DNA from: Thermoproteota archaeon
Lineage (GTDB): Archaea > Korarchaeota > Korarchaeia > Korarchaeales > JAOZGB01
Assembly (NCBI GenBank): GCA_027491935.1
Contig: JAOZGB010000009.1
Location: forward strand, 1-37,785
Length of the DNA stretch: 37,785 nucleotides
Direction of reading: 5' to 3'
The notes below the pieces were generated by a model. It did no database searches. It saw only the letters and a program-made list of their open reading frames with translations, and had not been told where the DNA came from. Shown piece by piece: positions 2,400 to 18,971 of the stretch. The position numbers and the translations under genes were made by a program. Numbering within the stretch: position 1 is the first letter of the stretch; every line of letters begins with the position of its first letter.

Positions 2400-4244
2400 T
2401 CACGTTTTCAGCCGTTCAACATGGAACTTTAAACTCCGGTAGTCTACTACTCTTACAGTTTCAAGCACGTAATCCGGCAATAACCTTGCGTATTCTCTTC
2501 TAAGATATCTCTCATCTCCAAGTATGAATATACCGCTGTCATCCTGAGACCTTAAAACTCTCCCTACTGCCTGAGAGGCTCTCCTGATCGCTGGGACAAC
2601 GTAGGCGTAGTATCTTCCCCTACCGCCATAAAGGTTAGTGTAATATTCTATGAGAAGCCGCGTTTTCAACGTCATCCTTTCGAATGGAATGCCAGCTAAA
2701 TACACAAGTTCAAGCTCCTCCCCAGGGAAGTCTGCTCCCTCGGCAAATCTGCCCATAGCCACTGCTAGGAGCACCGGCTTACGGCCTCTCTTAGCCATGT
2801 CTTTAAACTGGTCAAGTAAGAGTCTAGCTTTGTCCCCGCTCATCGCCTTTCTCTCCACCAGTACAGGCCGCCCAGCTTCTCTCAGCAGGTCAACAAGCCC
2901 CGCAGAGGCGAGTGAATCCTGAATCCTATAACTCGCTGAGAAGACCGCTGAACTCACGTCTACCGCAAGTATCGTTTCGACTATCGATTTTACATATCTA
3001 TTTGCCATATCAAAACTTAGTTCTTCACCCCTGGTGCTTACTCCTCTTAGTATGAAACTTCTAATCTTAGATCTGTCGAAGTAAGAGGGGAAAACCCTCT
3101 CTGCGTAGTCTTTAAGACCTATAACCTCTGCAAATCCAACTATAGGTTTCAATGTGCCAGAACAGAAGATGCACCGCCAAAATCTCCTCCAAATAGAGCC
3201 TAATATTTCCGAGAGCCTCATATCTACTAGCTCAATGTATAATCTGTCTTCTTCCCGGCTCCTAATGAGTCGGACACCCTCTGATTCAACATTATCCATT
3301 AACCGTTTCAAGAGTGAACATATCCTTCCAGTTGATGAGCGTGGAGGCCTACCCTCACCTAGCTTCTTTCTTCTTATAAAATCGGCTATTTTTTCAAGGT
3401 CTTCAACTATTCCATCTTCTCCTCCTAGGATAAACCTTAAGAATTCTTTCTTATCGATTTCAGCCTCCCCCTCCCCATTAAAATATTTGAGTATCTTGCT
3501 AACTGTCTGAAACGCAGTTTTACCCATCTCTGAAAGTTCTATCTCTTTCAAAGACGATTCTATCGTTCTCTCTGTGATTTTGATGTAGTTAAGATTTGAG
3601 ACTGCTGACTGTAGGTTATGGGCCTCATCTACAACTAGGATGCATTTACCAAAATCTAAGGTCCTAGAAATAGGTAGACCTATATTCTTATCAAGGATGT
3701 AGTTATAGCTTAACGATATGAGACTAGCATGCCTAAGCAAGGATCTTTCAACCATGTAGGGGCATATTCCCTGTTCCATTCCAAATGATAAGATTTCCGA
3801 GTAGATCAGCGGCTCATGTAGAACCATATCTGGTTTAAATTTTCTCTTGAAACCCCAGTAATATCTGCAATCCCTATGGTAAGCTCTGCAGATATAGGCA
3901 GCATCAGAATGCGATACATTCCTAAACTCTAAATCTCTCAATAAGATGCACATATCCTTTTTACCCCTAAAGGAGATGCCGAAAACCCCCTCTTTGAGTC
4001 TCTTGTTAATAACCTTGAGTTCTTCAACAGGCCTATCAGTCTCGTTACCCGTTCTAACAGCCCAGATAATTTTAAATCCCTTGGAACAATACGGAAGGAG
4101 AGCTGAGATTATGAGAGGAGTTTTACCGAATCCTGTTGGGGCTTCTACGCATATATTTCTTTCAGAAACGTATTTCTCGATGAACGAAAGGAAGGCTTTT
4201 TGCCCGATTCTAAATTCGTAGGGGAAATAATCCGAGCTTTCCAA
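2400..4244 (-). CDS. XPD/Rad3-family Fe-S DNA helicase
   Basis: A 614-residue superfamily 2 helicase. Visible elements are a Q-motif-like start (YEFRIGQ), Walker A APTGFGKT (35-42), four cysteines at about 99, 119, 126 and 161 forming the XPD-type 4Fe-4S pattern (the last in GICPYMVE), DEAH (206-209) and a motif VI stretch, QAVGRVLRSQDD, near the C-terminus. The order and spacing match XPD/Rad3/DinG 5'-3' helicases involved in repair and unwinding of damaged DNA. The length is close to archaeal XPD (about 550-620 residues). Start is TTG 4244, with GGAGG six bases upstream inside the end of the HAD gene, so the two genes are coupled. DinG-like function cannot be excluded from motifs alone. Confidence 0.9.
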   Translation of the reverse strand: MESSDYFPYEFRIGQKAFLSFIEKYVSERNICVEAPTGFGKTPLIISALLPYCSKGFKIIWAVRTGNETDRPVEELKVINKRLKEGVFGISFRGKKDMCILLRDLEFRNVSHSDAAYICRAYHRDCRYYWGFKRKFKPDMVLHEPLIYSEILSFGMEQGICPYMVERSLLRHASLISLSYNYILDKNIGLPISRTLDFGKCILVVDEAHNLQSAVSNLNYIKITERTIESSLKEIELSEMGKTAFQTVSKILKYFNGEGEAEIDKKEFLRFILGGEDGIVEDLEKIADFIRRKKLGEGRPPRSSTGRICSLLKRLMDNVESEGVRLIRSREEDRLYIELVDMRLSEILGSIWRRFWRCIFCSGTLKPIVGFAEVIGLKDYAERVFPSYFDRSKIRSFILRGVSTRGEELSFDMANRYVKSIVETILAVDVSSAVFSASYRIQDSLASAGLVDLLREAGRPVLVERKAMSGDKARLLLDQFKDMAKRGRKPVLLAVAMGRFAEGADFPGEELELVYLAGIPFERMTLKTRLLIEYYTNLYGGRGRYYAYVVPAIRRASQAVGRVLRSQDDSGIFILGDERYLRREYARLLPDYVLETVRVVDYRSLKFHVERLKT

Positions 4245-4245
4245 C

Positions 4246-4905
4246 TTAACCTCCTACCATAGCCGCTATAGTGTCAACTATCTCATTTAGACTCCCATAC
4301 GCTCCTGGGTATTGGTTGCTTCTTGAAAGATGAAATGATCTAATTCCTACGCTCTCAGGGACTATATAATCCTGTATGAAGTCGTCCCCTATATGAAATA
4401 TTTCTGACGGTTCAGCTTTTAAACTCTCTAAAACTTTACGGTAGGCTTCGGAATCATATTTTGTAAGTTTAAAGTCGTCAACAACAGAGAAAACCTTGTG
4501 AAACATCTTTGGGTCGAAGGGGGTTAGCAAAAACTTTAGGAAGGCCCTCGTTGAGTTAGTGATTAAAACTATTCTCCCTAATCTAGATGCTCCTCTGATC
4601 GCGCCCATAGCGTCACTATAGGGTTTAACTTCTACTGCTCTTGCTGCGTTAAGTAGAAGCACCTCCGGATTAACTTCGAGTTTAAGCTTTTCAACCCAAT
4701 AGTCAAGCATATACCATTCAATCATCCTATCTCCTACCATCCTATACTTGTTTATGATGTATTTATAAGCCTCCTCAAAGCTCAATCCATTCTTCTCCAT
4801 GTATAGGGAAGGTAGAAGCTTCAGCCAAACATAATTGCTAAAATTTTTCGTGACAAGGGTGCCTTCCACGTCAAATGAGATGTACTTAACCCTTTCCAAG
4901 GACAT
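4246..4905 (-). CDS. HAD-superfamily hydrolase
   Basis: A haloacid-dehalogenase-fold hydrolase of about 219 residues. Motif I is SFDVEGTLV (Asp nucleophile, with Glu where many members have the second Asp). Motif II is LITNST, a Lys in the KLTKYDSEAYRKV region fits motif III, and HIGDDFIQD is motif IV. An alpha-helical cap lies between motifs I and II, as in subclass C1 phosphatases. The DxE form of motif I is known in functional HADs such as enolase-phosphatase, so activity is expected; the substrate is unknown. The track starts at ATG 4920, but ATG 4905 is preferred because GGAGG lies just before it. It is translationally coupled to the downstream helicase gene and divergent from the phosphate permease. 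Confidence 0.85.
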   Translation of the reverse strand: MSLERVKYISFDVEGTLVTKNFSNYVWLKLLPSLYMEKNGLSFEEAYKYIINKYRMVGDRMIEWYMLDYWVEKLKLEVNPEVLLLNAARAVEVKPYSDAMGAIRGASRLGRIVLITNSTRAFLKFLLTPFDPKMFHKVFSVVDDFKLTKYDSEAYRKVLESLKAEPSEIFHIGDDFIQDYIVPESVGIRSFHLSRSNQYPGAYGSLNEIVDTIAAMVGG

Positions 4906-4952
4906 CCTTCCTCCAAACATTTATACATGGGCTGTGTGAAATATTGATTACA

Positions 4953-5924
4953 ATGCTCATTCTCCTAATTGCTTCCATAATGTTTTCAATGTACATAGCT
5001 ATAAGTATTGGTGCTAACGATGAAACAATGTCCACTGTTGCAGGTTCGAGGTTTATGACGGCTCTAAACGCCGCAATAATCGGAGGAATATTTAACCTCA
5101 TAGGCGCTTTACTTATAGGCTGGAAGGTCGAGGAAACCATAGGGAATGATATACTCACGTTTAGGGTCTCCAAATTTCATGCGCTAGCCATATTATCGTC
5201 AATGTCCATATGGTTGACTATAGCCTCTCTACTGGGGCTTCCGGTATCTGTAACTCATTCTGTAATAGGCTCGGCAATAGGCGTAGGAGTACTCTCGAAT
5301 GGGCTAGCAGGAGTTAACTGGGAGGTAATATTAACGATAGTTTTAGGAATGCTTGTTTCTCCCATCATAGGCTTTATCCTTTCATTTCTTCTATACGAAA
5401 TCGTTAAGTCATCCATCTTGAAAAGGGCTAAGGGAATTACCAGTAGAGAGTACGCGGAACTAAATTTCTCGCTGCTTCTACTCTCCAGCGCTATTCTAAC
5501 AGCATTTTCCAAGGGTGGCAACGATGTTGGGAATGCTACAGCGTTCCTGTCAAATATTCTAGGGAGCAGTATAATTGCAAGGATTATATGTGGGATTGGA
5601 ATGCTGGTAGGACTCTCCACACTGGGTAAAAAAGTTTTAATCAAGGTAGGCATGTCCGTTGTTAACCTAACACCAGCTATGGCTTTTTCAGCTCAATTCT
5701 CGACTGGAATCATCACTTTCCTAGCGACAGTAATGGGATTACCCCTTTCAAGCAGTCAGGTTCTCATCTCCTCCATAATAGGTGTGGGGTACGCGAGAGG
5801 CATGAAAATAAATTACAAACAGGTTGTTGGAATAATAGTTTCATGGATTCTTACATTACCTGTTTCAGGTATTCTTGCAGCTTTAATAGTTAAAAGTTTA
5901 CTACTTGCTACTCTAATGCTCTAA
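4953..5924 (+). CDS. pit: PiT-family inorganic phosphate permease
   Basis: A very hydrophobic protein of about 323 residues with roughly ten membrane helices and the internal duplication of the PHO4/PiT family. The first repeat carries ISIGANDETMSTVAGS and the second SKGGNDVGNATAF, the two signature GAND-like motifs. PiT proteins import phosphate, often as a metal-phosphate complex, with a cation. The track begins at TTG 4944; ATG 4953 is at least as likely because no Shine-Dalgarno favours either. The gene is divergent from the HAD gene, with about 45 bases between starts. It converges on the DUF47 gene, the usual PiT partner, and their 3' ends overlap by 17 bases. Confidence 0.93.
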   Translation: MLILLIASIMFSMYIAISIGANDETMSTVAGSRFMTALNAAIIGGIFNLIGALLIGWKVEETIGNDILTFRVSKFHALAILSSMSIWLTIASLLGLPVSVTHSVIGSAIGVGVLSNGLAGVNWEVILTIVLGMLVSPIIGFILSFLLYEIVKSSILKRAKGITSREYAELNFSLLLLSSAILTAFSKGGNDVGNATAFLSNILGSSIIARIICGIGMLVGLSTLGKKVLIKVGMSVVNLTPAMAFSAQFSTGIITFLATVMGLPLSSSQVLISSIIGVGYARGMKINYKQVVGIIVSWILTLPVSGILAALIVKSLLLATLML

Positions 5925-17251: not shown

Positions 17252-17340
17252 CTCAAAAGATGTATGGGATGTTTTAGATTATTAACCTCCTCTTCGAGCA
17301 TCCTAAATATTCTAATCCCGCCTTGTCTATTTGATGAAAA

Positions 17341-17529
17341 ATGGGTATTAATAGAGCCTTCAGCGAGTCCGGAGAGTCTAACCTGTTGAGGAAGGATAAC
17401 AGTCCTGCTAAGAGCATGGTTTCAGGACTAAAAACCCTCATTGAAAGGGTAAACACTCTTGAGAGAAGGGTGATGGAGATAGAGGATGCCCTTAAAGAGT
17501 TAGCTAACGTTCTTGGTGAGACCCCTTGA
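17341..17529 (+). CDS. Small coiled-coil protein upstream of MinD-like ATPase, 62 aa
   Basis: A 62-residue polar protein whose second half is a clear coiled coil (LKTLIERVNTLERRVMEIEDALKELANVLG, hydrophobic residues in heptads). The stop overlaps the TTG start of the ATPase gene by four bases, and the last codons supply its GGTGAG ribosome-binding site, so the pair is translationally coupled. The start could be ATG 17341 or the internal ATG 17419, which would leave only the coil. The coupling suggests a partner or regulator of the ATPase; no family is recognised. The longer minus-strand ORF over this region is considered a shadow. Confidence 0.6.
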   Translation: MGINRAFSESGESNLLRKDNSPAKSMVSGLKTLIERVNTLERRVMEIEDALKELANVLGETP

Positions 17530-18971
17530 AAGTGGTAACTTTCGGTAAAATCGGGGGAGGATGCGTCGACGGAGATTCCACGATACTTACCAAAGAACAC
17601 GGAAATATAGTTTTTCAAAAACTCTTTGAAAAAATAGTAGGTATCTTTAGACATGAAGTTATAGTTGCAGTGCTTCCTCCGGGTAAGCTTAGGGTGAAAA
17701 GCGTTAATACGGAAAATGGTGAACCTTCGTGGAAAGAGGTTAGGTGTATATGGAGAATACCTGTTAAGGGAGAAGTGTGTAAGGTAGAACTGTCTAATGG
17801 CAACTCGCTATTAACCTCCCGCAGGCATCCCTTTCTGGTAATCAAAGATTCTAAACTTCTATATAAAAAAGCTTATAGATTGAGCAAGAAAGACAGGCTA
17901 TTAAACCCGCTTGAAGGAAAAGCTTCAGAAGTGACAAAAATATTCCGAACGACTGTAGATACATATTTTTACGACCTTACTGTTGACGGATACAACAACT
18001 ATGTTTCATCTGGAATAGTAATTCATAATACAGGATGCACCAGTGTAAGCTTTAACACTGCTGTTTGGCTTTCAAAGCTCTATAACAAAAGAATAGCCTT
18101 TATAGAGGCTGACTTTGGAAGAAATAGTTCCGAATTCCTCTGGGATCCGCTTTTTTTAAAGGCTAGAGAGGAGAGCCCAGGCGATTATCCAACTCTCAGA
18201 GAGTATTTGAATGGATCAGCAGAGCCATGGGAAATAGCGCATGTGAGTAGTAGGTATCCAGAATATAAGAACATAGCCTTTATCCCTGCATCCCAAATAT
18301 TTTCGTCTAAGAAAGACTTATACAAAAACTACCCGAGCTACGAGGAAAAGATGCGGAATCTGATCAAATTTCTCAAATCGAGGTGCGCAGTGATAATAAT
18401 AGATGGGCCAGGAGGAGGGGGGTTTACAGGTATGGCTGACTACTATCTTTTGCTTCCGGTATCAGATGCATTCATACCAGTTCTGGAACCCAATAAACCA
18501 ACAATAAACGCGACTCAGCCTTTAATAGATTTATCAACACTTCTCAAAATAGAATATCCAGCATACATTGTGAATAAAGTCAGGAGAAAGGATCTAAAGG
18601 ACATTAGAGAGATAACAAGGCCTATCAGAAAGTCGGAGGCTCAACCCTGCTTCATAGTTCCATACGACGAAAACATGGAGAAATCTTACAGGATGGGCAT
18701 ACCGATCGCCATACAATACCCCGATTCCAAGGCGTGTAGAGAGATTAGAAGAGTAGCTGAATTCTTGATGGAGGCTAAAACCGGAAGCGAAGCTAAGCGT
18801 AGAGTATCCCTCACACCCCTGATAAACGCGATACTATATGGAAATGCACAGATAAAAACTCTAATATATCAGCTCAAGGAAAAACTGGTCAGTAAAGGAA
18901 GAGTGGACGATGAAATATCTGAAGAGCTGAAGGAGATAGAAAAACTATTAAAGGCTATAGAAAGCCCCTAA
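17526..18971 (+). CDS. MinD/ParA-like ATPase containing an in-frame mini-intein
   Basis: The 481-residue ORF is a SIMIBI-class ATPase split by an intein. Residues 1-12 (VVTFGKIGGG) and 169 onward (TGCTSVSFNTAVWLSKLY) join after splicing into a P-loop region, GKIGGGTGCTS. FIEADFGRNS (switch I type) and VIIIDGPGGGG (Walker B type) follow. The C-terminal part has a helical tail (LKEIEKLLKAIE). Spliced length is 325 residues. Aligned to the deviant Walker A KGGVGKTT, both lysines are replaced (GGGTGCTS), so nucleotide binding may be atypical, as in TadZ/CpaE-like members. Start is TTG 17526, coupled to the coiled-coil gene. Role could be membrane positioning, pilus/secretion polarity or partition; context does not decide. 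Confidence 0.85.
   Translation: MKVVTFGKIGGGCVDGDSTILTKEHGNIVFQKLFEKIVGIFRHEVIVAVLPPGKLRVKSVNTENGEPSWKEVRCIWRIPVKGEVCKVELSNGNSLLTSRRHPFLVIKDSKLLYKKAYRLSKKDRLLNPLEGKASEVTKIFRTTVDTYFYDLTVDGYNNYVSSGIVIHNTGCTSVSFNTAVWLSKLYNKRIAFIEADFGRNSSEFLWDPLFLKAREESPGDYPTLREYLNGSAEPWEIAHVSSRYPEYKNIAFIPASQIFSSKKDLYKNYPSYEEKMRNLIKFLKSRCAVIIIDGPGGGGFTGMADYYLLLPVSDAFIPVLEPNKPTINATQPLIDLSTLLKIEYPAYIVNKVRRKDLKDIREITRPIRKSEAQPCFIVPYDENMEKSYRMGIPIAIQYPDSKACREIRRVAEFLMEAKTGSEAKRRVSLTPLINAILYGNAQIKTLIYQLKEKLVSKGRVDDEISEELKEIEKLLKAIESP
17562..18029 (+). mobile_element. Mini-intein (156 aa, no homing endonuclease) in the ATPase P-loop
   Basis: Residues 13-168 of the ATPase ORF form a Hint domain. Block A is CVDGDSTIL with catalytic Cys1. 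Block B is SLLTSRRHPFLV with the His of the N-terminal splice site. Block F is TYFYDLTVDGYNNYVSSGIVIHN, ending in the penultimate His and terminal Asn. The +1 extein residue is Thr169. Only about 156 residues separate the ends and no LAGLIDADG motif is visible, so this is a mini-intein that has lost or never had the endonuclease. The insertion lies exactly between Gly and Thr of the P-loop, a common intein location. Block B has the His preceded by TSRR rather than the common TxxH. Confidence 0.9.

Follow-up and report, generated by a model that had tools for sequence, protein, structure and literature searches.

A korarchaeal gene for a MinD/FlhG-like P-loop protein is interrupted, exactly within the P-loop, by a class-1 mini-intein, and the loop that splicing would reassemble carries a cysteine in place of the Walker A lysine. 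Of the explanations considered, we regard as probable the one in which the insert is a self-excising, near-neutral passenger in a pilus-type FleN/MinD-like protein that lacks the lysine and has reduced or no ATP hydrolysis. The gene lies in a stretch of 37,785 nucleotides that was analyzed as a whole (hereafter the window). The source assembly comprises 456 kb and is 66.7% complete, and its genome is the sole member of its family in the genome collection; the relatives used for comparison are Thermoproteota MAGs and Ca. Methanodesulfokora (class Ca. Korarchaeia in the NCBI taxonomy). The features relevant to this locus are:

17341..17529, plus strand: 62-aa ORF, coiled-coil-like, whose stop overlaps the TTG start of the MinD-like gene by 4 nt
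17526-18971, plus strand: intein-bearing ORF of 481 aa, with 481 codons open and a TTG start
17526..17561, plus strand: N-extein, MKVVTFGKIGGG, comprising strand beta-1 and the first half of the P-loop
17562..18029, plus strand: class-1 mini-intein, CVDGDS...VIHN, 156 aa, ORF residues 13-168
18030..18968, plus strand: C-extein, MinD/FlhG-like P-loop protein, first residues TGCTSVSFN
18036..18038, plus strand: TGC codon, Cys at the P-loop lysine position (residue 15 of the spliced protein)

The intein and its predicted splicing

The insert is recovered by the Pfam Intein_splicing profile (PF14890; 65.4 bits against a cut-off of 35.8, E 6.6e-18), by the N-terminal intein model TIGR01445 (43.0 bits against 24.5), which detects the N-terminal splicing motif, and by the C-terminal intein model TIGR01443 (26.7 bits against 15.6). 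These matches bear out the proposal of an earlier note on this DNA that residues 13-168 constitute a complete Hint mini-intein. Its closest solved relatives by sequence are the archaeal inteins CDC21, PI-PfuI and PolII in the PDB. The intein block was modelled separately from the host ortholog discussed below, and the resulting AlphaFold model of the block alone (pLDDT 87) aligned in Foldseek with the PolII, CDC21 and RadA inteins at TM 0.82-0.87, one domain-swapped PolII entry scoring lower, with E values against archaeal inteins down to 1.9e-10. A Hint fold is hence predicted for this block. Splicing-domain profiles are the only ones that match the 156-aa intein and no homing endonuclease domain was detected in it; it is a mini-intein whose homing endonuclease has been lost.

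Examination of the active-site positions showed Cys1 (window position 17562), the sequence S-R-R-H at intein residues 86-89 (block B), which retains the His and has a Ser for the Thr of the usual T-x-x-H motif, Asp138 of block F, the terminal His155 and Asn156, and a Thr at extein position +1. Block F also has an Asn where the FtsY intein described below has a His, and this departure, together with the block B Ser, might slow splicing. Judged from these residues, the intein most likely does splice by the standard class-1 route: a thioester would form at Cys1 at the N-extein junction, transfer to Thr+1 would follow, and cyclization of Asn156, aided by His155, would complete the reaction. The joined N- and C-exteins amount to 325 aa, with IGGGTGCTSVSFNTAVWLSK as the predicted junction peptide, and the product, in which GKIGGG is joined to TGCTS, would have an uninterrupted MinD fold.

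Intein-free orthologs and the identity of the host

The complete 481-aa ORF yielded no close relative in the genome-contig or viral-contig collections searched. Searches with the extein, on the other hand, identified true orthologs in six other genomes among the 29 Korarchaeota genomes, and in a profile search of 297 genomes these seven proteins formed a group at E 1e-117 or better, with other MinD relatives at E 1e-25 or weaker. All six orthologs (L003-L008) are intein-free and align with the N-extein and through the junction without a gap, their loops reading GGG/TGKTT, SGG/VGKTT or RGG/VGKTT, where the slash marks the insertion site. Because this gapless alignment extends to all six, the boundaries of the intein, with residue 12 joined to residue 169 as originally proposed, are exact; the intein-free alleles that the earlier note had suggested looking for in relatives are thus at hand. 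Sequence comparison also indicates that exact removal of the intein would give a MinD/FlhG-type protein of normal length. The occurrence of GGATGC at both junctions was considered as a direct repeat or target duplication and rejected, given that the window contains 31 copies of this hexamer and that deleting one repeat copy would not restore the length of the loop.

Comparison of the spliced protein with MinD/ParA profiles, another suggested check, gave a mixed answer: the extein flank does match the archaeal MinD model TIGR01969 (minD_arch; E 4.9e-9), albeit weakly, at 35.7 bits against a cut-off of 201.75, and the joined extein is below the Pfam cut-offs for AAA_31 (22.6 against 27) and CbiA (22.5 against 25.4). 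Since none of the curated cut-offs for MinD, ParA or Pfam families is reached, we base the assignment of the protein on its orthologs and on the fold. The model of ortholog L003 (pLDDT 84) has the archaeal MinD 1hyq as its best PDB match (E 6.3e-13), followed by FlhG (4rz2), and on this model the spliced window protein is predicted to adopt the MinD/FlhG fold. The ortholog alignment and the L003 fold together identify the host as a member of the MinD/ParA family and place the intein in its P-loop, as had been claimed, and sequence relationships suggest that the host belongs to a Korarchaeota-specific FleN/MinD-like group.

Replacement of the Walker A lysine

Joining the exteins restores the loop GKIGGGTGCTS and with it the predicted MinD fold. 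The earlier note, which gave this loop and a MinD-like order of motifs, overlooked that the lysine of the Walker A motif (G-K-[ST]) is missing from this loop, being replaced by Cys15 at C-extein position +3. The lysine is present in all six orthologs, and in each of the 42 distinct MinD relatives with a readable intact loop, a count that includes the orthologs. A sequencing error is an unlikely source of the difference, since conversion of AAA or AAG to TGC takes three base changes. The lysine of the deviant Walker A signature (KGGxGK) is also absent, its place being taken by G in the window protein and by G, S or R in the orthologs. Elsewhere the protein keeps 26 of the 33 positions that are invariant in the six orthologs, the seven changes being K15C, T17S, A46S, Y83H, L144F, S170T and L211I, and it retains D40, D137-x-P-G-x-G-G and N194-K195. 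We therefore read the extein, on the basis of its sequence, as a protein under constraint in which a single change, at the active site, is radical.

Loss of the Walker A lysine in P-loop NTPases usually abolishes hydrolysis. Splicing would thus probably restore the fold and not a canonical ATPase, and the proposal that it regenerates an active ATPase is not supported, given the cysteine at this position. MinD-family proteins without the Walker A lysine might still bind nucleotide. The lysine has been replaced by cysteine in the window lineage, and in the scenario that we favor the mature MinD-like protein would most likely play a structural or regulatory part, with ATP hydrolysis reduced or none.

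A distant MinD-like paralog in another korarchaeal genome, G002 (L019:1456-2355, plus strand, the same gene as L069:7511-8416), has a degenerate P-loop, NGNLCAEVT, and an Asn for the Walker B Asp, and is likely to be a pseudo-ATPase. It too has a Cys near the position of the Walker A lysine, in a region where the alignment, at 21% identity, is gapped. As this paralog lacks a P-loop, motif loss has a precedent in the MinD-like group.

Gene neighborhood and a probable link to pili

In four of the genomes with an intein-free ortholog (G001, G002, G024 and G025) a T2SSE-type secretion ATPase is encoded 3-7 kb from the gene, and the surrounding genes include some for single-TM pilin-like and for multi-TM proteins. 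This neighborhood, which is found in the relatives only, suggests that the host is a pilus-linked FleN/MinD-like protein. Contig C13 of the window's genome does carry an operon of the pilus type, whose T2SSE-type ATPase lies at 3239-4978. As this operon lacks a MinD-like gene, the window copy is a relocated or stand-alone member of the apparently pilus-linked group. In a census of archaeal T4P, FleN/MinD-like ATPases are named as frequent regulators whose genes lie outside the pilus locus more often than within it (PMC4858521). The window group resembles these ATPases (arCOG00589) and the bacterial FlhG/FleN in its fold and in the association of its relatives with a secretion ATPase, but differs from them in being Korarchaeota-specific and in that the orthologs lack the deviant Walker A signature lysine; the window copy differs additionally in lacking the P-loop lysine and in bearing an intein.

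In the window itself the MinD-like gene has a CinA-like gene and a tRNA-Cys as neighbors. Its only near partner is the 62-aa ORF, which matches no significant Pfam family and is possibly its operon partner. This ORF and the C-terminal tail were considered as conserved partners and rejected, as they have no homologs near the orthologs. A 126-aa ORF on the minus strand (17274-17654), opposite the 62-aa ORF and the N-extein, has no NCBIfam match and is probably not a gene.

Is the intein a switch, a relic or a passenger?

The location of the intein exactly within the P-loop had led to the suggestion that splicing could act as a switch. In such a scheme, a signal such as heat or redox state would trigger an inactive precursor to splice into a working MinD-like protein. 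Such a role has been proposed for P-loop inteins, e.g. those of RadA and DnaB, and P-loop inteins in other ATPases do splice conditionally (PMC5790916; reviewed in PMC5874633). However, the argument loses its basis here because the P-loop still lacks the lysine after splicing. Moreover, only one of the seven alleles of the MinD-like group carries the intein, and hence there is no sign of selection retaining it, or of its conservation for regulation. Thus, we found no evidence in support of a switch and consider it quite unlikely. A version in which the cysteine at +3, close to the splice junction, is itself tied to the intein, forming a putative redox lock with Cys1 in the precursor that would make splicing and maturation sensitive to oxidation while sacrificing ATP hydrolysis, appears very improbable.

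It is also conceivable, though unlikely, that the host gene is decaying, its MinD-like role having been lost after it left the pilus operon, with the lysine gone and the intein lingering. The lysine-to-cysteine change and the replacement of the family's Tyr by His at residue 83, the separation of the gene from the C13 pilus operon and the example of the degenerate G002 paralog, which shows that such proteins lose motifs, all point in this direction. Against it stand the reading frame, open throughout, and the retention of the Walker B region, D40, PGxGG and NK motifs along with most family-invariant residues. We see scarcely any prospect that the Hint domain, as a bacterial-intein-like or degraded element, only cleaves and releases two separate products: the Ser of block B and the Asn of block F, at positions occupied in many inteins by Thr and His, might hint at this, but the essential class-1 residues (Cys1, the His of block B, the Asp of block F, the His-Asn pair and Thr+1) are all present, TIGR01443 is matched above its cut-off and the extein frame is exact. 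Most likely the insert is a splicing passenger, a near-neutral element that has been kept vertically and can be lost only by exact deletion.

Inteins of Korarchaeota and of other P-loops

A genome-wide survey of one phylum, Korarchaeota, recovered intein matches in all 29 genomes, with up to 11 in a single genome (G027) and often two matches per gene. In G003 (contig 18; L048:587-2017, minus strand) the SRP receptor FtsY contains a 171-aa P-loop mini-intein (GFNGVGK/CVAGDS...LIHN/SLSLAK). Among the fetched loci this is the intein nearest to that of the window (28% identity, BLASTP 3e-16), and FtsY and the MinD-like host are presumably both SIMIBI-class NTPases. The two inteins share their phylum and their type, that of a P-loop mini-intein, but the one in FtsY is inserted after GK (GFNGVGK/S), the lysine is kept and the host is the SRP receptor.

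The RadA inteins 4e2t, 4e2u and 2lqm align with the predicted structure of the window intein at TM 0.85-0.87; we take the RadA intein to be inserted after the lysine and the window intein before T-G-K, and the hosts differ, being a recombinase in one case and a MinD/FlhG-family protein without the lysine in the other. Like the window intein, the RadA mini-inteins of Pyrococcus horikoshii and T. sibiricus are archaeal, endonuclease-free and situated inside the P-loop (PMC5790916). More generally, inteins reportedly favor ATP-binding proteins, which account for over 70% (PMC5790916), and P-loops are reported as favored sites (PMC5874633). The P-loop mini-intein is thus already known as a kind, and MinD/ParA-family proteins are probably new as hosts: a word search of titles and abstract openings, in which "MinD" also matches "mind" and which subscription papers mostly escape, found no intein in this family. 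As regards its phylum the host is not unusual, since every genome there has intein matches, including the one in the P-loop of FtsY.

With these observations the hosts of P-loop inteins gain one more family, and Korarchaeota, a phylum that has received little study, emerges as rich in inteins, with mini-inteins at several P-loops. They also provide a natural case of an intein whose landing site is without the lysine, the residue whose conservation supposedly keeps inteins in P-loops, and so bear on whether such inteins persist for regulation or for want of exact deletion.

The genome of the window probably has a second intein, in the 983-aa anaerobic ribonucleotide reductase NrdD encoded on C13 (L063:10808-13756, plus strand), after which an NrdG-like radical SAM protein is encoded; NrdD matches the TIGR01445 model with E 5.4e-6. 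In G004, a HerA-like ATPase (L052:475-2736, minus strand) has an intein of ~239 aa at its P-loop (GMTRSGK/S...FVHN/SSF).
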